From: an uncultured Eubacteriales bacterium
GTDB lineage: Bacteria > Bacillota > Clostridia > Lachnospirales > Lachnospiraceae
Reading direction: 5' to 3'
NCBI GenBank assembly: GCA_900314565.1
Contig: OMVU01000012.1
Span: 1-64,000, forward strand
DNA: 64,000 nt
The translations under genes and the position numbers were made by a program. Each line of letters begins with the position of its first letter. Positions within the stretch are counted from its first letter, which is position 1. The notes under the pieces were generated by a model that worked only from the letters and a program-made list of their open reading frames with translations, made no database searches and had not been told where the DNA came from. Of this stretch, positions 6,374 to 64,000 are shown piece by piece.

Positions 6374-7436
6374 AAGTATCTTTCAGGGCGGACTCGGCCA
6401 GCTTACGATTCCCGTTATAGCGATTGCCTTACTGGTACTGTTCAATCTGATCAGGGATCCGTCCTTTTTCAGCATCGGGATCACGCATAACAATGACGGG
6501 AATGCGGTACTGGCAGGCAACCTGATCAGTATTGTCAATTCTGCAAGTGAACTTGCCGTCCTTGCCATGGGAATGACGCTTGTCACTGCGGCCTGCGGCG
6601 GACAGGATATCAGTGTCGGTGCGGCCGCTGCAATCGCGGGAAGTACATTTGTAAAGGTGTTAAAATCCGGCGGATCGATTTCAGGACTCACGGTCCTTGC
6701 AGCATTTCTGATGGCCTGTGTCGTAGCGATGCTGTTCGGTACATTTAACGGTACGCTTGTTGCTGTGTTCAAAATACAGCCGATGATCGCGACCCTGATC
6801 CTGTATACATGCGGACGGTCTATTGCTTACTGGATCAACGGCGGCGCGACGCCTACCGTGAGCAGCCCGATCCTTACCGGGATCGGAAGCTTTATCCCGG
6901 GCATTCCGATCCCGACACCGGTCATCATCGTGGTCGTTGTGGCAGTCATCTTCAGACTTGTCTTCCACTTTACTTCACTTGAACTGTTCACGCAGTCTGT
7001 CGGCATCAACGGGAGCGCGGCAAGGCTGAACGGGATCAACGTGACCGGGATCAAACTCCTGTCCTTCATTATCCTCGGTCTGTGCGTCGCGGTCGCAGGC
7101 TGCATCGGCGTCTGCAGGCTCGGACTCATCAATCATGAAACTCTTTTGCTTGACGTCGAGATGGATACCATTCTTGCGGTAGCGATCGGCGGAAACAATC
7201 TGGGAGGCGGAAAGTTCAGGATCAGCGGTAGTATCATCGGAGCTTACGTAATTCAGATGCTTACCATCACACTCTATGCCATGAAGGTCTCTTCCACAGA
7301 CGTAAAGGCATACAAGGCCATCGTGATCATTATCCTTGTCGTGATCGGCTCTCCTGTCGTCAAGAGCCGGTTCGAAAAGATGATGAGGCAGAGACAGGAA
7401 CGTAAGGTGCCGGCAACTGCGAAAGGAGTGAAGTGA
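6357..7436 (+). CDS. Sugar ABC transporter permease 1 (YtfT-like)
   Basis: A 359-residue inner-membrane permease of the BPD_transp_2/RbsC family with about 8-10 hydrophobic segments. The family signature MGMTLVTAACGGQDISVGAAAAIAGS is near residues 65-90, and AIGGNNLGGGKFRISGS near residue 285 corresponds to the ATPase-contact region. The ATG at 6357 follows GGGAGGTGAAG and overlaps the ATPase gene by 17 bp. Having two different permeases in tandem is characteristic of YtfT/YjfF galactofuranose-type importers rather than the single RbsC of ribose systems. The substrate is inferred from this architecture only. Confidence 0.85.
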   Translation: MKKKSKSIFQGGLGQLTIPVIAIALLVLFNLIRDPSFFSIGITHNNDGNAVLAGNLISIVNSASELAVLAMGMTLVTAACGGQDISVGAAAAIAGSTFVKVLKSGGSISGLTVLAAFLMACVVAMLFGTFNGTLVAVFKIQPMIATLILYTCGRSIAYWINGGATPTVSSPILTGIGSFIPGIPIPTPVIIVVVVAVIFRLVFHFTSLELFTQSVGINGSAARLNGINVTGIKLLSFIILGLCVAVAGCIGVCRLGLINHETLLLDVEMDTILAVAIGGNNLGGGKFRISGSIIGAYVIQMLTITLYAMKVSSTDVKAYKAIVIIILVVIGSPVVKSRFEKMMRQRQERKVPATAKGVK

Positions 7437-7438
7437 CT

Positions 7439-8470
7439 ATGAAAAAAAGCAAAGATTTTCGCAGGGAACCGCTGACAGATACACAGCTTCTGATGACCAT
7501 TACCATCTGCATTTTCGTAGGGATGTATCTCCTTGCAATGTTGATTTTCAAGGGCGGGTTCCTTCACGCGCAGCAGGTCTTCGACATGCTCAATGACAAT
7601 GCCAGCCTGATCATCGTTTCCTGCGGGCTGACGGTCGTTATGATCGGCCGGGGCATTGATATTTCCGTCGGTGCGGTCACATCTTTTGTTGTCATGAGCT
7701 GTGTTCTGTATCTGAACAAAGGCGGCAGCCTGTTTGTATCCGTTCTGATCGCCCTGGGCATCGGCCTTGCTTTCGGCATTGTGCAGGGCTTCCTGATCAG
7801 CTATCTGGAAATTCAGCCTTTCATTGTCACGCTGGCGGGTATGTTCTTCGCGAGAGGAATGACAACGATCCTTTCCGTCAACCCGCAGAAAGCCGCGCAC
7901 GAGGGATTTGCAAAGCTGAGAGAGACAAAGATCGTCATACCCTGGCTGGGGTATATCGCGAAAAACGGAAAACTTGTTCCCGCGCGTGTGGAGCTGGGCG
8001 TTGTCGTCGCGCTCTGCTGTCTTTTAGCGGTCTTTCTGCTGCTGATGTTCCACAGACTCGGACGGGCCTTATACGCGATCGGCGGAAACCCGTCCTCAGC
8101 GCTGATGCTCGGAATTAATGTCAAAAGGACCCGTTTCCTTAGCTACGTGATCAGCGGGCTTCTGAGCGGTATTTCCGGATTCGTATTCATGATGCATACC
8201 GGTGTGGCAAATGCGACCAATGCGGCCGGTATGGAAATGAACGCCATCGCATCCTCCATTATCGGCGGGACACTTCTTACCGGCGGTGTGGGAAATGTGA
8301 TCGGCACTTTCTTCGGAACAATGACGCTGACGACCATCAAGAAGATCGTCGTCTCGAGCGGACTTAACGCTCCCTGGTGGCAGAGCATTACGACCGGAGG
8401 AATGCTGTGCTTCTTCATTCTGCTGCAGAGTGTGGTGCTCAGCCAGAGAGCAAGGAAGAAAAAAGCATAA
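7439..8470 (+). CDS. Sugar ABC transporter permease 2 (YjfF-like)
   Basis: A 343-residue permease of the same family, with MIGRGIDISVGAVTSFV near residue 70 and AIGGNPSSALMLGINVKR near residue 215. The ATG at 7439 lies 10 nt after GAAAGGAG; a GTG at 7433 is a weaker alternative. It overlaps the stop of the first permease only if that GTG is used. No periplasmic-type binding protein gene is found on either side of the transporter, although this family needs one. It was probably lost with the 5' part of the ATPase gene. Confidence 0.85.
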   Translation: MKKSKDFRREPLTDTQLLMTITICIFVGMYLLAMLIFKGGFLHAQQVFDMLNDNASLIIVSCGLTVVMIGRGIDISVGAVTSFVVMSCVLYLNKGGSLFVSVLIALGIGLAFGIVQGFLISYLEIQPFIVTLAGMFFARGMTTILSVNPQKAAHEGFAKLRETKIVIPWLGYIAKNGKLVPARVELGVVVALCCLLAVFLLLMFHRLGRALYAIGGNPSSALMLGINVKRTRFLSYVISGLLSGISGFVFMMHTGVANATNAAGMEMNAIASSIIGGTLLTGGVGNVIGTFFGTMTLTTIKKIVVSSGLNAPWWQSITTGGMLCFFILLQSVVLSQRARKKKA

Positions 8471-8516
8471 TGCCCCGCATGGACGGGCATCGGTCGGATT
8501 TCTGAACTAAGTATTT

Positions 8517-8564
8517 GAAAGGAACGCCTTGAAGCATTTGCAGATGCCTTGAGGCGTTCTTTCT
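8517..8564 (+). terminator. Hairpin terminator of the sugar transporter
   Basis: AAAGGAACGCCTTGAAGCAT pairs with ATGCCTTGAGGCGTTCTTT around a short loop, followed by TTC. The outer arms belong to the GAACGCC/GGCGTTC hairpin family scattered through the window. It lies 47 bp after the second permease. Confidence 0.7.
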
Positions 8565-8727
8565 GACTCTGCTCAGAATTCCCGTGAGCGGGTACTGAAT
8601 TGTGAGATGAATGCACATAGTGCTATGGACATTTATACAAAAGCAAAACATAATAAGCCGGAACAGCTTTCATTTCAGACCTTCGAGCGAGACTTGAATA
8701 AAACCATTACAGGAGGACATTTATATT

Positions 8728-11273: not shown

Positions 11274-11462
11274 GGGTTCTCCTTTCCATCTGTGAGTGCA
11301 CTGACAGGCTTTTACGAATCTCCAGGAAATGCATTGTATCGCAAATGCCTGTGTGAATGCACAGATATTTAGAGTTTAAGCACGGTGTACAGATGTCGTG
11401 CTGCTTTGACTATACACCAACCGTTTCGGTTTCACAAGCCGACTTTCAGGAAGAAAAGGAAA

Positions 11463-11960
11463 ATGAAAAGCCTGGACGATAGAATTCTCATTTATATACA
11501 GGATCATATAAGGAATCCGGTCCTTGATCCTGTCATGATCGCGATCACGAATCTCGGAAACGGTCTGTGGTTCGTGATCGGTGTATATCTCTGGTTTTCA
11601 GGGGAAAATATTCCCGGCGGCAGGTACATCCTGATCAGCCTTCTCGTATCGTGGATCCTCTCAAAGATCTTCAAGGTGATCTTTGGGAGAACGCGGGCTT
11701 ATCACGCGATTCCCGGTCTTACGACGATCGTTCCGGAGCCGAAGGACAAGGCCTTTCCGTCAGCCCACGCGGCGACCGCTTTCGGCGGAGCCTTCGCAGT
11801 CCTTTTTCTTTTTCCGGGAATTTCCGGAGCTGCCTCGATCCTTTTTGCGGTACTCATCAGTTTTTCGAGAATGTACGTCGGCGTGCACTACCTGACGGAT
11901 TTGCTGGGAGGCGCAGTGACCGGGGCGATCGGTGCGGCGATCTGTCTATTGATACTATAG
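11463..11960 (+). CDS. PAP2-family membrane phosphatase
   Basis: A 165-residue integral membrane protein of the PAP2/undecaprenyl-pyrophosphatase-like superfamily, with about five hydrophobic segments. The catalytic motifs are mostly present: KVIFGRTRAY (motif 1; the usual RPR is RTR here), PSAHAA (motif 2, general acid His), and SRMYVGVHYLTD (motif 3, nucleophile His). Likely substrates are lipid phosphates such as undecaprenyl pyrophosphate or phosphatidylglycerol phosphate. The ATG follows AAGAAAAGGA. A paralogue with a canonical motif 1 lies at 50764. The altered motif 1 may narrow or shift activity. Confidence 0.85.
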   Translation: MKSLDDRILIYIQDHIRNPVLDPVMIAITNLGNGLWFVIGVYLWFSGENIPGGRYILISLLVSWILSKIFKVIFGRTRAYHAIPGLTTIVPEPKDKAFPSAHAATAFGGAFAVLFLFPGISGAASILFAVLISFSRMYVGVHYLTDLLGGAVTGAIGAAICLLIL

Positions 11961-12052
11961 AAAGAGCATTGTGAAACTTTTAGAAAGAGTATTGTGCTGC
12001 CTTTAGAAAAAAATAGTGCTGCTTTTAGAAAGATTATTTTGATACTTTCCGC
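11957..12052. repeat. Four degenerate tandem units of about 22-24 bp
   Basis: Successive units begin TAGAAAGAG/TAGAAAAAA and contain (C/T)ATTGTG or TAGTGCTG, ending in a CTTT run. The array starts at the stop codon of the PAP2 gene and ends before the next gene. It might be slipped-strand duplication of the 3' end of the PAP2 gene. Confidence 0.6.
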
Positions 12053-12088
12053 AGAGAACAGAATGGGAATGCGTCAGGGAGAACAGGT

Positions 12089-13381
12089 ATGCTGCAGGGA
12101 TTTTCCGTGGAAAACTTCAGATCGATCGACAACGTGAGCATCCCGGACCTGAGGATACCGGCTGTCTTCAGCGCAGAGAATGGGAGGGATCCGGGTGATA
12201 TCCGGGACAGCATTTTGCTCGCGGCACGCTCCTTTCCGGGCGGCAGAGACGGCTCGCACTTGCTGACAGAAGGAGTGTCTCCCTTTGAGGATTTTGCGGA
12301 GAATATGCGGGGGAGCACATCTCTCTCCGGGGTGTTCAGGGAGTGTGTGCAGGAGGGGCCATCCTTCTCTGAGCCGTTCAGGGAGTGCTCCCGGGAGGGC
12401 GCGTCTTTCATTTCCATGAGCCATACATGGGTTCTCATGAATCCGGAAAATGAAATTGTACCCGGCTTCGCAGATAAAAAGCGCAGCGGGGCAGGCGAGT
12501 TCCGTGAGATCTGCCGACTGTTCGGGGAACGGTTCGGAGTCGTCCGGCAGATCGTTCTGAAAAATGAAGTGACCTTTGAATCCCGGCCGCTCTCCGAAGC
12601 CGGGAACATCTTGTCCTACCAGATGCTTGAGGTCACCGTTGATCGTGCCTTTAAGGCTCCTATTACGGGGTTTTACGAGCTTGTCGTCTACCCGGGCGGG
12701 ACGAACTATGACCTTTACTGGGATACGCTTCCTGACGTGCACAGGATTCCTGTCACGGGGAGGGCAAAGGGCTGCAATATTCGCATGAGCGGACTGGAAA
12801 TTCGCAATATCGTAACAGACGGGGTGCAGGACGGGGCGGATTTCGATATGATCCTGCCGACGGTCATGCGGCTCTCGGAGTATCCGGGTAGGATGTTCAG
12901 AGGCCTTGTGCATGACGAAGCCGGATCCGGAGCCTCCGGCGGATCGCAGATGTGTGCAGTGGAAGGCGCAGACGCGCCGCGCACGTGGCGGCAAGAACGC
13001 CGAGGCATTCTTGAGTCCGGGTTCGGAAAGATCGAAGCGACTAAGAGAATCCCCTGGATTGCCCCGGACGGAGAGCTTGTCCACAGTGTTAGGGAGGAAG
13101 CCGTCGATACATGGCTCGCTTACATAAACGGGACGGACAGGGGAAAGTTCAATACACCCCAAAGCGCAGAGGAAGAGGGAGGCTGGATGAATGATGCAGC
13201 AGGTGTTGCTCCCGGTCTTCTTGCCGCGCTTCTTCTGGCTCCGGTCGGCGGAACGTTACTTCTTGAAGCACCGCTTTCCTCATATGAGAGCGGGGTGCGG
13301 ACACGGTTCCTTGCGTTTGCCGCCGCTCAGGCGAAACTTGAGAAAAGTATCCTTATAGCCGAGGGGCAGATGCGGAAATAA
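12089..13381 (+). CDS. Degenerate SMC/AAA-like ATPase homologue
   Basis: A 430-residue protein whose ends resemble AAA_15/AAA_21 (OLD/RecF-like) ATPases. The N-terminus GFSVENFRSIDNVSIPDL is the usual opening strand of that group. At the P-loop position it reads FSAENGRDPGD, without GxxGxGKS/T. Near the C-terminus GGTLLLEAPLSSYESGVRTRFL sits where Walker B and the D-loop (LLIDEPESSLHP) would be, with the catalytic Asp-Glu replaced by Glu-Ala. The protein therefore probably cannot hydrolyse ATP. DNA at 12929-13016 inside the gene matches an intergenic repeat of this window and adds about 29 in-frame residues. It may be a binding-only homologue or a decaying gene that still keeps a full frame. 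Confidence 0.6.
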   Translation: MLQGFSVENFRSIDNVSIPDLRIPAVFSAENGRDPGDIRDSILLAARSFPGGRDGSHLLTEGVSPFEDFAENMRGSTSLSGVFRECVQEGPSFSEPFRECSREGASFISMSHTWVLMNPENEIVPGFADKKRSGAGEFREICRLFGERFGVVRQIVLKNEVTFESRPLSEAGNILSYQMLEVTVDRAFKAPITGFYELVVYPGGTNYDLYWDTLPDVHRIPVTGRAKGCNIRMSGLEIRNIVTDGVQDGADFDMILPTVMRLSEYPGRMFRGLVHDEAGSGASGGSQMCAVEGADAPRTWRQERRGILESGFGKIEATKRIPWIAPDGELVHSVREEAVDTWLAYINGTDRGKFNTPQSAEEEGGWMNDAAGVAPGLLAALLLAPVGGTLLLEAPLSSYESGVRTRFLAFAAAQAKLEKSILIAEGQMRK

Positions 13382-54878: not shown

Positions 54879-55027
54879 TTACGAATTGAGGCGGGATGTG
54901 CTGAAAGCGGCGGCACAGACCGACCGGCAAAATGCAGGAGGAAACGCTGGAAAAGCAGCGACGGATACTTCCATCCGCGATTAAAAGAGGGAGGAGACCG
55001 GGGCAGGAACTGCGCCGGAGAAAAAGC

Positions 55028-55405
55028 ATGAGCAGAGTGAACGAAGAAGTGCCTGAGATCGCCGAAGAATTGATGCCGGAACTGGAAGACGGATTTTTTG
55101 ATGAAGATCTGTTCGACGAAGAAGAGTTCAGGAACCGGTTCAGCGTTATGACCGGAGAAGAGCTTGACCGGGAGGCTGCCGGCGAAGATGCGTTTCCCTG
55201 GGATTATGCCCTGGAATGGGAGGAGGAGTTCGAACCGGAAGATTTTCATCCGCTGACCGGGGAAGAGCTCGATCAGGAAGCTGCCATAGAGGACAGCTTT
55301 GAAATCGGGGAAGATGAAGAGGAGGAATTCGATCCGGAAGATTTCCATCCGCTTACGAAGGAAGAATTAATGACAGAAGGCGGCCGGTACTTCGAGGAGG
55401 AATGA
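55028..55405 (+). CDS. Small acidic repeat protein
   Basis: A 125-residue, strongly acidic protein of unknown family. It contains imperfect repeats of FEPEDFHPLTGEELDQEAA / FDPEDFHPLTKEEL (about residues 68-90 and 102-118) and a related VMTGEELDREAAGEDAF at about 40-56. No signal peptide or membrane helix is seen. GCCGGAGAAAAAGC precedes the ATG at 55028; an upstream in-frame ATG at 54932 would add a basic 32-residue stretch and lacks a good site. The acidic composition echoes the giant protein at 59515, but the repeats differ. Confidence 0.6.
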   Translation: MSRVNEEVPEIAEELMPELEDGFFDEDLFDEEEFRNRFSVMTGEELDREAAGEDAFPWDYALEWEEEFEPEDFHPLTGEELDQEAAIEDSFEIGEDEEEEFDPEDFHPLTKEELMTEGGRYFEEE

Positions 55406-55432: not shown

Positions 55433-57409
55433 ATGGGGGAAAATAAAGTGCCAGACAACCCGCAGAAGCGCGATCTGTTCGCAGAATTATCTGAGATGTC
55501 TGTCCGGGAGGTGGAGTCACAGATCCCGGGGACAGCAGAGAGAGGGACAGAGGAGACAGAAGAGTCTGCGCAGAGGTCGTGGAAGAATACGATCAGGACG
55601 ATCTCACAAAGGAAAACAGCGTGGACAAAAGGAGCTGAGGATACATCCGAAAGCTTGTCAGATGCTTTTATTACTGAAGAAAAAAACCAGACAGCAGAGA
55701 ATGCTGTCAAGTCAGAGCCTGATTCCGGGAAGTCCGGAATCAGCGCCGGTTCCGTACAGACAGGAAGCCCTGATGCAGTCAGAACGAAGGCTGATCCTGA
55801 TCATTCCGGGATCGGTGCGCTCGAGAAGGAACTTCTCGGAGCCACCAAAAATCATGTGGAAGAAGATGCGAAAACGATCTCTTCGCTTGATCTGGAGCGC
55901 GAGCTCCTGTCTGTCAGAGCAGAATCTTCCTCCAGATCAGAAAAGGATGCACGTCCGGATCTCAGTGGGATCAGTCTGGAATTTGAGAAGAACAATGAAC
56001 AGAGTACATCCGCCGGAAAGGTCAGACCGAACGGGAATGTACTTTCAGACGAGGATACCTTCTATGCAGATATCGCCGCAAATGATATCGAGACAAGAGG
56101 ACCTGTCAACGAACCGCTCAGGGGTGAGCGCTATGATCCCCTGGAGGAGGAGCGGGAGCGCAGGGAAAAAAAGGACCGTCTTATAAGGATCATACTTTTC
56201 TCGGCTCTGATGCTGGTGGCAGGAGCCCTGCTCACATATGTTACCTTTATCCGTGATTCGGGAAAGAAACCCGCAGACTCCGTAAAAAGTGCGACTGCCG
56301 GTACAGGGAAAAACGACAGTCTGCCGTCGGAGTCATCCGGCACAGGAAGCGGAGGATCTTTGACCGACAGCGCTTCGAAAGAAACCGTGGAGGATATCAG
56401 CACGGAAGATCTTTCGGTCTATCTCTCCGAGATGCCTGCGGAGGGAACCGAAATCGTCAGCACTGCCGATGCGCTCTACAGTTATGAACAGATGGTGAAG
56501 GATCTGTATTTTCTGACGAACAGATATCCGGATATCATCAGGACGAACATTGCGGCAACGACGCTGGATCAGCGCGCTGTCTATGAAGTACTTATTGGAA
56601 ATCCAGACGGATCCATGCATGTCGTCGTGCAGTACGGAATGCGCGGAAGCGAATACATCACGAGCCTTCTTGCGATGCGGCAGCTTGAGTATTACTGCCA
56701 GGAGCGGTCGAAGGGCAATGTGTACAGGAACCACAATTACAAGGAGATCTTCGCGGATGTCTGTATCCATGTTCTCCCGATGGTGAACCCGGATGGGGTG
56801 ACGATCAGCCAGTTCGGGATCGATGCCCTCCGGACCAGGGCCGCAAGGGATTCCGTGAAAGCCTGCTACGAATATGACAAGGCGGCAGGCCTGACGGATC
56901 AGTCTATGGATGCGTACCTTCTGACATTCGGAGCCAATGCAGCAGGCGTTGACATCAGCAAAAATTTCCCGGCCGGCTGGAGCAGGTATACCGGCGGAGC
57001 CGTGCAGCCTTCCTATCAGGGCTACAAGGGGCCTTCCGCGGGGAGTGAGCCGGAGACGCAGGCCGTCATGAATGCTGCGAACGACAAAACGAAGGGAGTC
57101 GTCATTTACCGGGCGACAGGAAATGTGATCTACTGGGACTACGGTTCGGAGGGGACTGTACACGAGGAAGGTCAGCATCTTGCCGAGTCGCTTTCCACGA
57201 GGTCGGGATATCCGCTCACTGTGCTGCCGAAGTATGATTCGACGGATGCGGGCGGATGCGCAGACTATTTTATTGAGGAAGGGATCCCTGCGGTCAGCCT
57301 CGTCGTCGGGGAGGGAACATCCCCGGTCGATATTTCGGCATTCCCGGATATCTGGACCGCGAATCTCAATATCCTTCCGATGCTTGCGAATCTTTACACT
57401 AATGGCTAA
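55433..57409 (+). CDS. Membrane-anchored M14 peptidase homologue, probably inactive
   Basis: A 658-residue protein with a long Ser/Glu-rich cytosolic part (residues 1-245), one transmembrane helix (about 250-270, RIILFSALMLVAGALLTYV) and an external M14 carboxypeptidase-like domain. The fold is recognisable: MVNPDGVTISQFGID, NAAGVDISKNFPAGW, PSAGSEPETQAVMNA and GTVHEEGQHLAESL. The zinc motif HxxE reads R404-G-S-E407 (YGMRGSEYIT). The third zinc His position appears as IYR560ATGNVIYW, and the catalytic Glu region reads AVSLVVGEG. Loss of these residues suggests a non-catalytic, peptidoglycan- or peptide-binding role. Relatives of this type normally cleave gamma-D-Glu-diamino acid bonds. Confidence 0.8.
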   Translation: MGENKVPDNPQKRDLFAELSEMSVREVESQIPGTAERGTEETEESAQRSWKNTIRTISQRKTAWTKGAEDTSESLSDAFITEEKNQTAENAVKSEPDSGKSGISAGSVQTGSPDAVRTKADPDHSGIGALEKELLGATKNHVEEDAKTISSLDLERELLSVRAESSSRSEKDARPDLSGISLEFEKNNEQSTSAGKVRPNGNVLSDEDTFYADIAANDIETRGPVNEPLRGERYDPLEEERERREKKDRLIRIILFSALMLVAGALLTYVTFIRDSGKKPADSVKSATAGTGKNDSLPSESSGTGSGGSLTDSASKETVEDISTEDLSVYLSEMPAEGTEIVSTADALYSYEQMVKDLYFLTNRYPDIIRTNIAATTLDQRAVYEVLIGNPDGSMHVVVQYGMRGSEYITSLLAMRQLEYYCQERSKGNVYRNHNYKEIFADVCIHVLPMVNPDGVTISQFGIDALRTRAARDSVKACYEYDKAAGLTDQSMDAYLLTFGANAAGVDISKNFPAGWSRYTGGAVQPSYQGYKGPSAGSEPETQAVMNAANDKTKGVVIYRATGNVIYWDYGSEGTVHEEGQHLAESLSTRSGYPLTVLPKYDSTDAGGCADYFIEEGIPAVSLVVGEGTSPVDISAFPDIWTANLNILPMLANLYTNG

Positions 57410-57523
57410 AGTGTCCGGAAACGCATTCAGTGTGTTGAAAAAGCCGGGATCATCGGCTAAGATGGTGCTGTTCCGCAGTGAACAGTCGATAAATACCTTT
57501 AAAAATTGAGGAGGAAAAGACAG

Positions 57524-57748
57524 ATGCTGCAGGATATTATTGATGTGCTGGCACAGTATACGGATGTACCGGCGGAGGAGATCAATGAGAGCTCTGATCT
57601 CATTGAGGATCTTGAACTTAATTCATTCGATGTCATCACGATCGTAAGTGATTTCGAGGATCAGTACGGGATTCAGATCCCGGACGATCAGATCACGGAA
57701 TTCCGTACGGTCGCGGATATCGAAGCATATCTGGAGAAGGAAAAATGA
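57524..57748 (+). CDS. Acyl carrier protein
   Basis: A 74-residue carrier protein that holds acyl groups on a phosphopantetheine arm. The attachment site is S34 in EDLELNSFDVITIV, where typical fatty-acid ACPs read LGADSLD. Acidic helices and the C-terminal IEAYLEKEK fit the fold. The ATG at 57524 follows TGAGGAGGAAAAG. Its stop overlaps the start of an acyl-ligase gene, so the carrier and ligase form a dedicated pair. Comparable pairs occur in D-alanylation (DltC/DltA) and specialised acyl-transfer systems. Confidence 0.9.
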   Translation: MLQDIIDVLAQYTDVPAEEINESSDLIEDLELNSFDVITIVSDFEDQYGIQIPDDQITEFRTVADIEAYLEKEK

Positions 57749-59307
57749 AAAAATACCCACCTTATAACCCGCCGGCAGTTGAAGACCTGCGGCAGATGAT
57801 CGTTTCAAAGGCAGAGAGCAACCCGGATGGCATCGCGTTCATGTACACCGGGGATGACGGCTCAGTTCAGACAGTTACATACGCACGTTTCCGTGCGGAT
57901 GTGGATGCAGTCGGGACCTATTTCCATGAGCAGGGAATCGTGGAAGGAAAGCATGTGGCGCTGCTCGGCGTCAATTCCTATGAATGGCTAGCGACATTTT
58001 TCGCGCTGGTCAACGGCGGAAATGTAGTTCTTCCGCTGGATGCCCGCCAGCCCGTGGAGAACCTGATCCGCCTGCTCTGGGACGGAGACTGCGCAGTGCT
58101 TGCGTATTCAAAGGAATTTGAGCCTGCGATTCCAGCCTTTGCGGCTTCACTGAACGACAGCCCCGCTGCGGATGCGAGAGGATTCCTTCCTCTTCCGCTC
58201 ACTTCATTTTCCGATTGGGTCAGAGAAGGTGAGAAGCTTATTGCACTGGGCGACCGGTCGTTCATCGACTGCGAGATTGATGTACATGATATGTGCGCGC
58301 TGGTCTTTACTTCCGGGACGACCGGAAAGCCGAAGGGCGTCATGCTGAGCCAGGATAACATTGCGGCGAACATTTACCAGGCGAGCCAGAGCTATGTTCT
58401 TGAAGGCGTAGGACTCTCTCCGCTTCCGATGCATCATATGTTCGGACTGATCGTAGGACATCTGATGGTATTCAACTACAACAGGCCCTGCTATATTGTG
58501 AGAAATATCCGCAACGTCATGAAGGACATTCAGATCGCGAAGCCGACCTGTCTCTTTGTCGTCCCGATGATCATCGAGACATTCGCAAAGCAGTTCCGTA
58601 TCATGGCAAAGCGCACGGGCACGCAGATGACGCCGGAGATGGTAAAGACAGCCCTCGGCGGAAATCTTACGGATATTATCTGCGGCGGAGCTCCGCTTCC
58701 GGTCATGTATGTGCAGCTGTTCCGCCAGTTCGGTATCAATCTGCTGAACGGATACGGCATCACGGAATGCTCACCGGTCCTTGCTGTCAACAGGGTCATG
58801 GATTACTGTGACGGTTCTGTCGGTCCTGCGCTTTTTGATACCGAGGTCATGATCGACGAGGACGGAGAAATTCTTGCCCGCGGCCGCAACGTCATGCTGG
58901 GATATTACAAGGATCACGACGCGACAGCGGAAGCCATGAAGGGCGGCTGGTTCCATACAGGCGATCTCGGCAAGATCGAGGATCATTATATCTTTATCAC
59001 GGGCCGCGCGAAGAACCTGATCATCACTTCTTCCGGTGAGAACATTTCTCCGGAGGAACTGGAAGACAAATTCCTGGCTGATCCGGCTGTCGCTGAGGCG
59101 ATCGTCTATGAAAAGGACAACAATCTGGCGGTGCAGATCTTCCCTGAGAAGGAGGCCGGTGCCCCGGAGGAATACTATAAGGCCCTGCTTGCAAAGATCA
59201 ATTCCGGAGAGCCGGGTTACAGGCAGATCCGCAGTCTTATCATAAGGACGGAGCCGTTCGTCCGCAATTCGACCGGCAAGATCGTCCGCACGATGATAGA
59301 AAAGTAA
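57745..59307 (+). CDS. AMP-dependent acyl ligase (acyl-CoA/acyl-ACP synthetase)
   Basis: A 520-residue ANL-superfamily adenylating enzyme. Motifs: LVFTSGTTGKPKGVMLSQDN (ATP-binding A3), NGYGITECSPVLAVN (A5), GWFHTGDLGKIEDHYIFITGRAKNLIITSSGENISPEELE (A7-A8), and NSTGKIVRTMIEK with the C-terminal Lys (A10). MHHMFGLIVGHLMVF and LFVVPMIIETF resemble long-chain acyl ligases rather than DltA. With the preceding carrier protein it probably loads a carboxylic acid onto that ACP. No acyltransferase or MBOAT gene follows immediately; the next gene is the giant acidic flavoprotein-like gene. Confidence 0.9.
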   Translation: MKKYPPYNPPAVEDLRQMIVSKAESNPDGIAFMYTGDDGSVQTVTYARFRADVDAVGTYFHEQGIVEGKHVALLGVNSYEWLATFFALVNGGNVVLPLDARQPVENLIRLLWDGDCAVLAYSKEFEPAIPAFAASLNDSPAADARGFLPLPLTSFSDWVREGEKLIALGDRSFIDCEIDVHDMCALVFTSGTTGKPKGVMLSQDNIAANIYQASQSYVLEGVGLSPLPMHHMFGLIVGHLMVFNYNRPCYIVRNIRNVMKDIQIAKPTCLFVVPMIIETFAKQFRIMAKRTGTQMTPEMVKTALGGNLTDIICGGAPLPVMYVQLFRQFGINLLNGYGITECSPVLAVNRVMDYCDGSVGPALFDTEVMIDEDGEILARGRNVMLGYYKDHDATAEAMKGGWFHTGDLGKIEDHYIFITGRAKNLIITSSGENISPEELEDKFLADPAVAEAIVYEKDNNLAVQIFPEKEAGAPEEYYKALLAKINSGEPGYRQIRSLIIRTEPFVRNSTGKIVRTMIEK

Positions 59308-59514: not shown

Positions 59515-62500
59515 ATGGCGAAATCACTGATTTTATACGATGGAAAAATGAGCACAACAGAGCGTGTTGCGACCACGATCGGACATATCGTAGGCAACGT
59601 CCGGATCTGTGAGATAGCAGAAGCTCCGTCGGACATCTCCATGTATGACGGATTCTGTTTTATTTTCAATTTTTACGGTGCGCTCACGGCGGGAAAGACA
59701 AAGTCCTTCCTGAATACAAGGAAAGAACAGCTCATCGGCAAAAGGATCGCTTTTGTCGGCCTCGGTTTTTCCGATAAGGGCTTCACGAAGTATGTCGTTG
59801 ACATGGAATTTGCTCTGGGCGGAGACCTGTCTATCACAGGCATGTTCATTGAAAATGAAAAGACAACGACCGAGGTCGGTTATCAGATCGCGAAGAAGCT
59901 GCGTGAACCGGTGCGGCGCATGGATGAGGCGGAACTCATGGCGGAAGTCGGCAGGTTTATTGAGGACCATCATGTTCTCGTTATTGCGACGGGGACAGAT
60001 GATTTCGTGCGTGCGACGCCGCTGGAATATATATATCTGAACGGTGTGTTTTATGTGATCACTGAGGGCGGTCTGAAATACCGGTCTATTCTGGAAAACG
60101 GAAATGCGTCTGTGACGATTTTCGATCGATTCGACGGCTCTTTTGAGCATATAAGAAGTCTGCAGATTTTTGGAAAGGCACAGCCTGTCAAGTCTCAGAC
60201 GAAAGAGTACAGTGAGATCCTCGCACGCAAAGGCATCACTGCGGATGCGCTTGACAAAATGGATGTCTGTCTCTTTGTGCTCCGGATCATGCCTCTGACC
60301 ATTGAGTTCCTGAACTCGGATTTCACGGCACAGGGATACGACGCGCGCCAGCTTGGCGATACGGAATTCAGAAAGCAGCTGTGGGAACAGGGAAGTGCGT
60401 TCGTCCGCGACAGTTTTGAAATTGCAGGCAGTACCTGTGCCAAAGTCCAGAGTCAGCCGAAGGAATCCGGACTTTTTGGAAATGAACCGGAAACAGCCGG
60501 CAAAAAAGTCAGTGTGGCTTCCGGTGAGGACCGTATGGCCGGTGACGGAGTATCAAAAGAAGACAGTGAGACCGGTATGGATCTGACGGGAGATTCTGAT
60601 GATACGGATCTGTCCACGAATGCAGGCAGTGGATCGCAGCCGGCAGATACCGAAGACGGCTCTGAAGGGATCTCTGCCGCTGAGGGCAGCCCGGACGGAG
60701 AAACGGAAGGTACAGGCTCCCGCAAAATGTACAGCGCATTTGATTTTGGCGGAGAACTTCTTCTGGAAGATGAAGAAGAGGAAGCTGTGGAAGAGGCGGA
60801 GAGAGAGCCGGACGAAGAGGATGATCTTTCATTTTATGGAGACGAAAAGGAACCCGTCTACGAGGGGCTCGCTGCTGAGAGCCGTAACATGGCGGAAGAA
60901 GTTCGTCGCATGATGGAACTTCGGAGCAGCGAAGACGCTCCTCAGGAAGAGGAAGAAGAGAAGAAAGTTCCGGATGAGAAGGAACTGGAGGAGTATCGGG
61001 ATCTCTTCGGCGGGGTGGAAGATCTGCACCGCGACGAAGTGAAAAAGACCCCGCTCATCGAGCGCGAGGGAAGAGTCGATCTCAGAGAGTATCTGGATGA
61101 GATGGATATCGATGAGGAAGACCCGGAAGCGGAAGAGGACGGGGAAGAAGAGAAAGAAGAGGATTATCTGGAGAGAAAACGTCCGAAGAGAGCGAGAAGA
61201 CGCGGTTTCTTCGCTTCGGGATTCGGAAAAAGCCTCAGCCGTCTGCTCGGCATTGATGACGAGGAAGAGGATGAAGACGAAGATGAAGACGAGTATGATG
61301 ATGACGAGGAAGACGGGGAGGAGACATACAGAGAATCCTGGATGGAACGCTTCCGCGCCCGGAGAGACGATGAAGAGCTTATGGATGAACTGCGGGCTGA
61401 CAGCGAAGAGGAGCCGGATGAGCTTGACGAGCTTCTCCTGAAATACGGATCGGACGACGAAGAGGACGAAGATTCGGATTCGTACGATGATGAATATGAA
61501 GACGATGAGGAAGATTCGGATCCGTACGATGATGAATATGAAGACGATGAGGAAGATTCGGATTCGTACGATGATGAATATGAAGACGGGGAAGATTCGG
61601 ATACGTTCGATGATGAGTATGAGGACGATGAGGAAGATTCGGATACGTTCTACGATGAGTATGAGGACGACGAAGACGACGATTCGGATGACGGGTACGA
61701 AGAGGACGAAGACTCGGATGACGATTATGATGAAGAGGATGAAGATTTCGGGGATTCGGATGATTATGAAGAGGACGAAGAATACGAAGATTCCGATGAC
61801 GGGGAATATGAGGATGATGAGGAACCCGATAGACGATCGGGAATGAAATCCGGTGAAAGCTGGATAAAAAGGATCATAAGGCTCGGGCTTGGCGGAAGAA
61901 GCCGTGAAGACGAGGATTCGGATGAGGACGAAGAGGACGAAGACGAATACGATTATGATGAATCGGACGAAGACGGATATGAATATGAAGAATCGGACGA
62001 AGATGAGTATGAGTATGAAGAATCGGACGAAGATGAGTATGAAAATCCGAACGAAGACGAGTACGAATATGAAGAATCGGACGAAGATGAGTATGAGTAT
62101 GAAGAATCGGACGAAGATGAGTATGAAGAATCAGACGAGGATGAGTACTCTGATGAAGAGGAGTATGAGGACTCGGTTGAGTCCGGGGACGAGGATGCGG
62201 CTGAAGACGAGTATGAAGAGAGTATCACGGCCTCCCCTTCCGGAGAGCCTGAAATCAGCATAGAAGCTTATGCGAAAGCGCATGCAGATGACTCGGAGGC
62301 TGATGAAAAAGCGATCGAGGCTCGCGCTGTGTTCGAGAACAATCTCCGTGATGCTGTGTCAGCCGGGGAAAAGAAGATCGATGTTCCTGTGCCTGCCGAG
62401 AACGAGAAAATCGTGGAAGAACGCGTCTCACAGGAAGCTTTTGAGACAGTTGAGAACGCAGAGCCTGATGAGGCAGCCGGGATTCCGGTGATCGAGGAGG

Positions 62501-64000
62501 AAATTGAGACACCGGTAATCGAGGAGTCGATCGAAGTTCCGGTGATCGAGGAGGAAATTGAGACACCGGTAATTGAGGAAGCAGTCGAGACACCGGTCAT
62601 CGAAGAGGAAGTTGAGACATCGGTAATTGAGGAGTCGATCGAGGTTCCGGTGATCGAGGAGGAGACTGAGACACCGGTAATTGAGGAAGCAGTCGAGACA
62701 TCGGTCATCGAAGAGGAAATTGAGACACCGGTAATTGAGGAGTCGATCGAGGTTCCGGTGATCGAGGAGGAAACTGAGTCACCGGTAACTGAGGATGTGA
62801 TTGAGACTTCAGTGATTGAGGATGTAATCGAGACACCTGCAATTGAGGATGTGATCGAAATGCCTGCAATTGAGGATGTGATCGAAATGCCTGCGACCAG
62901 GAAGACTCAGGCAGCGGAAGTTCCTGAAGTTCCGGAATCCCGGGAGACAGAAGAGGCAGAGGCTCCTGAAGTGCCGGAGACTGAGACCGCTGAGCCTGAC
63001 AGAGAGGCTGAGATACCGGCAGAGCCTGTTGAGCCTGACCGGGAAGCTGAGATACCGGCAGAGCCTGTTGAGCCTGACCGGGAAGCTGCGATACCGGCAG
63101 AGCCAGTCGAGCCTGATATGGAAAATGAAGTGCCGGAGAAAAAGGATACTTCCGGTGAGTATAAAGCTTCCGGGAGATTCTGGTGGGATTCTGATTACAC
63201 GGATCTTTCCGGAGAGGATATTACGGACTTCCGGGAAGTCATTGAGGAGGAAGAAACAGTTTCTGAATCCGTAGCCGGCCTGAAAAAAGAGTCAGATCAT
63301 GAAGAATATGATCTGAGTGAAGACGATGATTCATACGATTCGGACGAGTGCGAGGAAAATGAGTACCAGGATGACGATGAGTATGAAGACGATGGCGAGT
63401 ACGAAGACGATGGCGAGTACGAAGACGATGGCGAGTACGAAGACGATGGCGAGTACGAAGATGATGGCGAGTACGAAGATGATGACGAGTACGAAGACGA
63501 CGAGTACGACGATTATGAAGACGCTGAATATGAAGAAGAGGAAGAATCTGACGAGGATACAGGCTCTGATCTCGGCAGCCGGATAAAGAATGTTTTCGGA
63601 CGTCTTTTCGGTCGGGGATTTGCAAAGTCTTCGGATGACGAGGATGAGTACGAGGATGACTCGGATGAGTACGACGAAGAAGATGAGTACGATGATGACG
63701 AGGATGAATACGACGAAGACGACGAGTACGACGACGAGTATGATGACGATGAAGACGACGAGTACGACGAAGAGTATGATGACGCCGCCGACGAAGAAGA
63801 CGAAGAGTATGAGGACAGCTCCGTAGACGGCGGGTATGAAGATGACGATGATTACGAGGAAGATGAGAACACACAGAGCCCTGCAGGATTCGGCGAGGTC
63901 ATTAAAGCAGAGGATCAGGGGCCTTCCAATGTAAGAAACAAAAGCGGAGAGATTGATCTGCCGGGCAGTTCGGCTTCAGATACCGTGGATTTGGAGGTGC
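59515..64000 (+). CDS. Giant flavodoxin/PNPOx-like protein with acidic repeat tail (runs off the window)
   Basis: At least 1,495 codons without a stop. Residues 1-150 resemble a flavodoxin domain, with YDGKMSTTERVATT as the phosphate loop and VGLGFSDKGFTKYV later. Residues about 150-250 resemble a PNPOx-like FMN-binding split barrel: HHVLVIATGTDDFVRATPLEYIYLNGVFYVIT...GGLKYRSILENGNASVTIFD. After a helical linker, the rest is extremely acidic: 14-residue units like DSDSYDDEYEDDEE (61471-61678), 10-residue EYEYEESDED units (61975-62145), PVIEEEIET/VIEESIEV units (about 62484-62920), 13-residue DREAEIPAEPVEP units (62998-63115) and EYEDDG units (63379-63486). Three short basic, amphipathic segments interrupt the acid (554-580, 773-798, 1353-1373). 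GAGGCGGGGAAA precedes the ATG. No signal peptide. The tail's role is unknown. Confidence 0.8.
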   Translation, partial: MAKSLILYDGKMSTTERVATTIGHIVGNVRICEIAEAPSDISMYDGFCFIFNFYGALTAGKTKSFLNTRKEQLIGKRIAFVGLGFSDKGFTKYVVDMEFALGGDLSITGMFIENEKTTTEVGYQIAKKLREPVRRMDEAELMAEVGRFIEDHHVLVIATGTDDFVRATPLEYIYLNGVFYVITEGGLKYRSILENGNASVTIFDRFDGSFEHIRSLQIFGKAQPVKSQTKEYSEILARKGITADALDKMDVCLFVLRIMPLTIEFLNSDFTAQGYDARQLGDTEFRKQLWEQGSAFVRDSFEIAGSTCAKVQSQPKESGLFGNEPETAGKKVSVASGEDRMAGDGVSKEDSETGMDLTGDSDDTDLSTNAGSGSQPADTEDGSEGISAAEGSPDGETEGTGSRKMYSAFDFGGELLLEDEEEEAVEEAEREPDEEDDLSFYGDEKEPVYEGLAAESRNMAEEVRRMMELRSSEDAPQEEEEEKKVPDEKELEEYRDLFGGVEDLHRDEVKKTPLIEREGRVDLREYLDEMDIDEEDPEAEEDGEEEKEEDYLERKRPKRARRRGFFASGFGKSLSRLLGIDDEEEDEDEDEDEYDDDEEDGEETYRESWMERFRARRDDEELMDELRADSEEEPDELDELLLKYGSDDEEDEDSDSYDDEYEDDEEDSDPYDDEYEDDEEDSDSYDDEYEDGEDSDTFDDEYEDDEEDSDTFYDEYEDDEDDDSDDGYEEDEDSDDDYDEEDEDFGDSDDYEEDEEYEDSDDGEYEDDEEPDRRSGMKSGESWIKRIIRLGLGGRSREDEDSDEDEEDEDEYDYDESDEDGYEYEESDEDEYEYEESDEDEYENPNEDEYEYEESDEDEYEYEESDEDEYEESDEDEYSDEEEYEDSVESGDEDAAEDEYEESITASPSGEPEISIEAYAKAHADDSEADEKAIEARAVFENNLRDAVSAGEKKIDVPVPAENEKIVEERVSQEAFETVENAEPDEAAGIPVIEEEIETPVIEESIEVPVIEEEIETPVIEEAVETPVIEEEVETSVIEESIEVPVIEEETETPVIEEAVETSVIEEEIETPVIEESIEVPVIEEETESPVTEDVIETSVIEDVIETPAIEDVIEMPAIEDVIEMPATRKTQAAEVPEVPESRETEEAEAPEVPETETAEPDREAEIPAEPVEPDREAEIPAEPVEPDREAAIPAEPVEPDMENEVPEKKDTSGEYKASGRFWWDSDYTDLSGEDITDFREVIEEEETVSESVAGLKKESDHEEYDLSEDDDSYDSDECEENEYQDDDEYEDDGEYEDDGEYEDDGEYEDDGEYEDDGEYEDDDEYEDDEYDDYEDAEYEEEEESDEDTGSDLGSRIKNVFGRLFGRGFAKSSDDEDEYEDDSDEYDEEDEYDDDEDEYDEDDEYDDEYDDDEDDEYDEEYDDAADEEDEEYEDSSVDGGYEDDDDYEEDENTQSPAGFGEVIKAEDQGPSNVRNKSGEIDLPGSSASDTVDLEV

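Follow-up and report, generated by a model that had tools for sequence, protein, structure and literature searches.

The 64,000-nucleotide stretch of DNA analysed here (the window; positions 1 to 64,000 of the forward strand of contig OMVU01000012.1, assembly GCA_900314565.1, from an uncultured Eubacteriales bacterium of the Lachnospiraceae) ends inside a giant gene encoding a flavodoxin-like domain, a PNPOx-type FMN split-barrel domain and a very long acidic tail. The frame opens on the forward strand with the ATG at 59515, a start consistent with the N termini of the relatives in an alignment of the two-domain head, and continues uninterrupted past the end of the window to a stop codon at 65308-65310 of contig G000:C138. 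The full protein has 1,931 residues, 1,495 of them inside the window. The initial annotation, made from the letters of the window, had proposed such a giant frame, and the downstream sequence bears this out with a tail longer than the window showed. The listed start of the next gene, which encodes a DUF3810 protein, overlaps the 65308-65310 stop, an arrangement that fits coupled translation of the whole frame. An NCBIfam scan of the long protein returned no family.

The head is comprised of the flavodoxin-like domain (approximately residues 1-133; 59515..59913) and the split barrel (approximately residues 134-290; 59914..60384), both on the forward strand. When the 305-residue head was scanned alone, PNPOx_N (PF01243) scored 30.3 bits against a cut-off of 28.1; within the long protein the score was 27.3-27.7 bits, just under that cut-off. 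Flavodoxin_5 (PF12724) gave 16.7 bits for the 305-residue head, below its cut-off of 27. The AlphaFold2 model of the head has a predicted local distance difference test score (pLDDT) of 90.5 and a predicted template modelling score of 0.78, and a Foldseek search with it returned FMN split-barrel proteins (best E 2.7e-9, 2iab) as well as flavodoxins (2w5u and 1fue, E ~1e-7; Helicobacter pylori flavodoxin at E 1.1e-7). Among solved structures, a profile built from 28 heads (A1) matched flavodoxin 2bmv at E 2.2e-4 and a split-barrel protein at E 7.8e-4. As modelled, the split-barrel and flavodoxin folds are both well supported, and the initially annotated union of two FMN-type domains in one chain stands; that annotation was to fall if the head resembled neither flavodoxin nor PNPOx, and both folds were matched among solved structures. 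The split-barrel residues R166, T168, G185, G186 and K188, of a type that we take to mark the cofactor site, are invariant in the 28 heads. The phosphate-binding loop of flavodoxins has a usual Gly/Thr pattern; at the position of YDSKYGFTER in an outgroup protein (G164, 39.1 bits on the flavodoxin profile) most heads carry a YDGKMSS(A/T)ER-like sequence, and as read from the sequence this loop looks altered relative to the outgroup. Flavin binding is putative for each of the two domains, as is any substrate.

Across the family, head matches (E 0.001 or better) were found in 28 of 299 genomes, and outside two genomes of the window's genus the listed open frames with a head in this sample have at most 298 residues. 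Within the genus, 30 of 42 genomes match the head, 27 of them over at least 200 of its 305 residues; the partial matches are to the flavodoxin part only (G304 and G312) or to the split barrel only (G308). Of the 27 two-domain genomes, four (G307, G315, G323 and G336) run off the contig and 23 could be read to a stop codon; in 22 of these the part past position 290 measures 146-1,648 residues, and in G311 there is no tail. The head profile, applied to named genomes, gave 22 loci, every one titled as uncultured Lachnospiraceae, Clostridiales or Clostridia, and three titles point to goat or sheep ileum. Assembly artefact, a possibility initially acknowledged for the repeats, was rejected: tails are present in 22 of 23 complete relatives, including a 796-residue protein on a single 3.27-Mb contig, and in named, independent metagenome-assembled genomes. 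Individual assemblies may nonetheless give a wrong number of repeats. No described system with this architecture had been known to the initial annotation; long acidic tails do recur in the genus, and the head itself is not unique, being found in tail-less proteins of 286 residues (G164, both Pfam domains over their cut-offs) and 278 residues (G265, aligned over the whole head, with PNPOx_N the one domain over its cut-off). A plasmid or viral origin was likewise rejected, with no match in a plasmid collection, no confirmed relative among viral contigs and no PHROGs family for the head at E 0.01. The protein is real, it is conserved within a single genus, and it is more unusual than one with an ordinary acidic tail.

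The tail occupies 60412..64000 on the forward strand (residues 300-1495 in the window) and extends outside it to residue 1931. From residue 241 onward the composition is 23.7% Glu, 20.2% Asp, 7.7% Ser and 5.7% Tyr, so that the described dominance of Asp and Glu holds and that of Tyr, which Ser exceeds, does not; the tail as a whole has 45% Asp/Glu and 7% Lys/Arg. Among 565 sampled open reading frames (ORFs) of the same genome, the highest peak Asp/Glu content per 100 residues is that of the giant protein (0.76), followed by that of SepF, the division anchor of the same cells (0.46). All five repeat types originally noted were recovered by Tandem Repeats Finder, each on the forward strand: a 14-residue acidic repeat at 61468..61670 (period 42, 4.9 copies, 91% matches), a 10-residue acidic repeat at 61935..62126 (period 30, 6.6 copies, 81% matches), a VIEE-type repeat in a 9/18/36-residue register at 62483..62859 (periods 27, 54 and 108), a 13-residue repeat, EPDREAEIPAEPV, at 62991..63116 (period 39, 3.2 copies, 93% matches) and a 6-residue repeat, EYEDDG, at 63379..63500 (period 18, 6.8 copies, 96% matches). 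Between sister species the type and number of repeats vary and the reading frame is retained.

The first description of the tail as long, acidic and repetitive was correct as far as it went, and overlooked conserved islands that are short, basic and hydrophobic, with sequences like GFFxRLGxxIGxxLxIDDEED. A composition rule (15-residue windows that carry a net positive charge and four or more large hydrophobic residues) identified 127 islands in the tails scored. In the window, the island at residues 564-585, GFFASGFGKSLSRLLGIDDEEE (61204..61269, forward strand), resembles the C-terminal motif of nine relatives, and a hidden Markov model (HMM) built from these nine gave it 10.7 bits, compared with 1.0 bit for the best of 100 shuffles of the window tail. 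Two others, drawn from the island list and from the periodicity and pattern tests, lie on the same strand at residues 773-800 (containing ESWIKRIIRLGLGGRS; 61831..61914) and 1349-1375 (containing SRIKNVFGRLFGRGFAKSS; 63559..63639), and a further two past the window end at residues 1626-1650 and 1745-1765. The nine relatives, with tails of 146-506 residues, each have one island 7-29 residues from the C terminus (for example GNVFSRLGMGIGKILQLEDEEE); four mid-island residues, approximately one helical turn, are missing in two of the nine. In long tails the islands are internal and several per tail. The one island of L065 does not resemble the rest. Island sequences vary widely between relatives.

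The island HMM was run on the 18 tails other than those nine, with 100 shuffles of each. A recognisable island beat every shuffle of its own tail in eight, with 12.8 bits in L053, 10.7 in L034, 6.7 in L033, 6.6 in L066 and 4.9 in L054, and weaker scores in L060 (3.6), L055 (1.5) and L056 (1.2); in the last two a different segment outscores the recognisable island. One of 100 shuffles equals the island score in L057 and in L058, and the HMM found no island in L059, L063, L065, L069, L076, L077, L078 or L045. Of 27 tails, 17 contain a six-residue pattern, with 25 occurrences in all, where shuffles gave a mean of 0.5 and a maximum of 4. Because sister species are not independent, the counts from composition rule, HMM and pattern overstate the number of separate cases. 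Helical periodicity exceeded that of within-island shuffles (p < 0.05) in 21 of the 127 islands, approximately six being expected, and the mean moment peaks at 100 degrees and exceeds that of the shuffles from 60 to 120 degrees.

Comparison of four pairs of sister species revealed head identities of 88-97%, island identities of 70-92% and spacer identities of 47-66%. Pair by pair, islands and spacers stand at 0.70/0.47, 0.92/0.60, 0.84/0.66 and 0.80/0.57, and circular shifts of the island mask gave p values of 0.0025, 0.0090, 0.0050 and 0.0100. Islands are thus better conserved than acidic spacers in all four pairs, and the gap persists when non-Asp/Glu residues alone are counted. The ratio of nonsynonymous to synonymous substitution rates (dN/dS) over alignable tail codons was 0.07, 0.19, 0.13 and 0.31, where the first pair is saturated in dS (4.03) and alignment inside the repeats is uncertain. 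From these ratios and identities the tail seems to be retained as protein, with the islands held more tightly than the spacers. In the head tree, which places L076, L079 and L080 on long branches, the long-tailed pair L033 and L066 is nested, away from the window's group, in a starred group (95/92) whose remaining members have shorter tails; this topology suggests that the tail was lengthened twice, with repeated shortening as an alternative.

The SepF of the same genome begins with MGFFDRFLDAIRLNDDYDDDDFLDEEEDDYDD and continues to KPRKRFFDRFSKKNKADDYDDYDDEDD. The SepF core (PF04472) has one match in the genome, at C94, in a gene other than that of the giant protein, and the possibility that the latter is itself a SepF was rejected on this ground. 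All 30 genus SepF loci fetched were found by phmmer, and 29 N-terminal parts were read from starts chosen by script, one of which is misplaced. The six-residue pattern occurs 49 times in 27 of these 29, 26 times at residue 2 and 22 times again at residues 41-59. An acidic window follows the pattern in 48 of 49 SepF cases, in 19 of 25 in the family tails and in three of four in the giant protein itself. In a sample of 564 mechanically defined ORFs of at least 90 residues from the same genome (177,923 residues, the giant protein excluded, one stretch having been picked because it holds SepF), the pattern matched 87 times and an acidic window followed twice, both times in SepF. The likeness between giant protein and SepF is one of layout, and convergence may account for it. 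As an observation on SepF itself, its N-terminal part in this genus is often bipartite, with the usual helix, acid, a second basic RFFxRF-like island and more acid. No FtsA (TIGR01174) or MinD (TIGR01968) match was found in the genome at curated cut-offs; both were dropped as anchor controls, and because of these results SepF may be the main membrane tether of FtsZ here.

Upstream of the giant gene, on the same strand, lie genes for an M14 zinc carboxypeptidase-like protein (55433..57409; Peptidase_M14, 87 bits), an acyl carrier protein (ACP)-like protein (57506..57748; PP-binding, 53.4 bits) and an AMP-binding, acyl-activating enzyme (57745..59307; AMP-binding, 203.6 bits), each a neighbour in part of the genus. 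The ACP and AMP-ligase genes are upstream in the window's relatives L053, L055-L060 and L075 and also in L077 and L078, and were not found beside many other relatives. The downstream DUF3810 protein has 372 residues (304.7 bits in Pfam), with a HELSH motif in the window's copy, and its gene comes next, in the same orientation, in 16 of the 22 complete relatives (the window counted) for which 1 kb or more of downstream sequence is available. DUF3810 was unmatched in eight head-bearing genomes, the assemblies being incomplete (G303, G305, G307, G323, G324, G325, G326 and G333); in five of them downstream sequence is present and DUF3810 is absent from it (L071, L069, L067, L062 and L074). Two loci, L077 (G304; 6986-8617) and L078 (G312; 11274-12989, minus strand), match the flavodoxin part weakly, have no Pfam domain at E 1, the split barrel included, and retain an acidic tail with islands together with ACP, AMP-ligase and DUF3810 neighbours. 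In G319, which has no head match, the gene before DUF3810 (L177, 3-1412) has a tail of the same style, its start lying outside the sequence seen. Tail and neighbourhood can thus outlast the split barrel. These neighbours are suggestive of an envelope or lipid context and do not fix the substrate. Two further proteins nearby are of note: a second acid-rich protein, of 157 residues, upstream on the same strand (54932-55405), found among the compared loci only in the sister species L053, and, downstream in L002 (11292-12890), a protein with a long Ala/Gln/Glu stretch, another slippage-prone repeat.

The reading that we tentatively favour, as a possible rather than a probable one, is that the flavoprotein is cytosolic and that its tail, multivalent and SepF-like, tethers it to the membrane. 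The tail, extended and rich in acid, would hold the flavodoxin-like and split-barrel unit against the cytoplasmic side of the cell membrane. In most relatives it carries one to approximately five islands, and each would fold, in the manner of the SepF N-terminal helix, into an amphipathic helix lying in the plane of the membrane. The acidic spacers would keep the tail extended and serve as flexible linkers, and each helix, a weak binder alone, would gain avidity from the several on one chain. At this point, the folding of islands into helices, their attachment to lipid, the part played by the spacers, and the flavin and substrate of the head are all putative. In published work, the N-terminal helix of Corynebacterium SepF binds vesicles and remains cytoplasmic when fused to a monomeric protein, which implies that this helix needs avidity (PMC7118173), and the helix of Noc is weak by itself and requires assembly (PMC4331003). 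By analogy, a chain of islands might carry its own avidity. A wider formulation is doubtful: an undescribed kind of bacterial tether in which one extended chain arrays weak amphipathic anchors in a fast-evolving acidic polyelectrolyte, an array apparently lengthened at least twice in one genus, keeps a two-flavin unit on the inner membrane in the manner of a brush, and has a grammar in common with these cells' own SepF division anchor.

Several results weigh against membrane tethering. One complete relative (G311) has no tail, and the complete tails of L063 and L069 have no island by either the composition rule or the six-residue pattern. The HMM placed no island above all shuffles in ten of 18 tails, and the six-residue pattern, which was written post hoc after inspection of both the tails and SepF, is unmatched in ten of 27. 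The enrichment of helical periodicity in the islands is moderate; the shuffle test behind it flagged none of 29 SepF helices and so has little power. AlphaFold2 placed the C-terminal island of a relative at a pLDDT below 50, with a helix of six residues. An earlier, composition-based rule for an island followed by acid gave six cases in the giant protein, one in each of two other ORFs and none in SepF, so that the likeness to SepF depends on the rule chosen. Cross-scoring of islands and SepF by HMM was dominated by acidic runs and did not establish homology. Finally, acidic flanks should repel an anionic membrane; the SepF proteins of the genus have acidic flanks too.

It is also conceivable, if unlikely, that the islands are peptides that dock onto a partner protein, such as the DUF3810 membrane protein, the acyl carrier protein or a cytoskeletal protein, with the spacers as linkers. 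Short conserved motifs amid a variable region fit docking and tethering equally, and the position of DUF3810 as the next gene on the same strand in 16 of 22 complete relatives would provide a candidate. Against this stand the eight head-bearing genomes without a DUF3810 match, five with downstream sequence present, the lack of ACP and ligase genes beside many relatives and the great differences in island sequence between relatives. Docking as the cargo of a shell is improbable too, as the genome has no encapsulin or bacterial microcompartment family; such cargo was rejected on finding PF04454 and PF00936 unmatched there and present in three and two of 14 control genomes.

An improbable alternative, akin to the phase-separating scaffold of the initial annotation, is that the tail forms a coacervate scaffold, its acidic blocks attracting basic islands within or between chains and concentrating the flavin domains. 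Blocks of opposite charge do alternate and aromatic residues are present, but an Asp/Glu content of 45% against 7% Lys/Arg in the tail of the window protein favours expansion, and the islands, beyond being basic, have a hydrophobic pattern in common. Still harder to credit is the view that slippage produced the tail as a mostly neutral extra, which persists because it is hardly harmful. The differences in repeat number and type between sister species, the spread of tail lengths from 146 to 1,648 residues, the tail-less relative and the island-free tails of L063 and L069 are all as a neutral tail would have them, whereas retention of an in-frame tail in 22 of 23 complete relatives, dN/dS of 0.07-0.31 in four pairs (with dS saturated in one) and the conservation of islands above spacers in all four pairs are not. 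That the acidic mass is a cation store or buffer or a nucleic-acid mimic, as initially suggested, is very improbable, since its composition would suit such a role but no finding spoke for it, the conserved basic, hydrophobic islands are left unexplained and some tails have Lys/Arg about equal to Asp/Glu (L067, 0.26/0.26; L070, 0.22/0.21; L071, 0.21/0.21; L068, 0.19/0.25).

The joined flavin domains are not new; the new part is the SepF-like array of islands in a giant acidic tail. As judged from listings, no paper was found on a flavodoxin and PNPOx or split-barrel architecture with a tail, nor on this architecture under the SepF acidic disordered linker or bacterial acidic repeats; none was found that joins membrane targeting sequence, amphipathic helix, FtsA, MinD and acidic residues, or that contains the word DUF3810. 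If membrane tethering is correct, the genus offers a natural series from one near-C-terminal island to approximately five in tails of some 1,600 residues, in which the effects of avidity, charge and linker length on peripheral membrane binding could be studied, and uncultured Lachnospiraceae of rumen and gut would have a flavin-type protein at their membrane. More generally, short islands between repeats can be the conserved part of an extreme low-complexity tail, and are missed by composition-based annotation.

Among known systems, the closest in layout is the SepF anchor, where, as in the tails described here, a short segment rich in Phe, Ile and Leu with Arg or Lys is followed by a long Asp/Glu/Tyr stretch. 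The SepF anchor is N-terminal, however, whereas the islands are C-terminal or internal, with several in the long tails, which reach 1,648 residues. Noc has a short, conserved amphipathic membrane-targeting helix that is weak alone (PMC4331003), as is proposed for the islands; it differs in having a single, N-terminal copy on a DNA-binding protein. The second head domain shares its fold and profile with the PNPOx-like FMN split-barrel proteins (PF01243), and its neighbours in the PDB include HugZ/HutZ heme proteins and a NimA/NimC-family protein; the split barrel is here joined to a flavodoxin-like domain and a giant tail. The tail-less two-domain proteins of G164 and G265 have the same flavodoxin-PNPOx order as the window protein, and differ from it in having no acidic tail and in adjoining none of the 15 neighbour genes tested.

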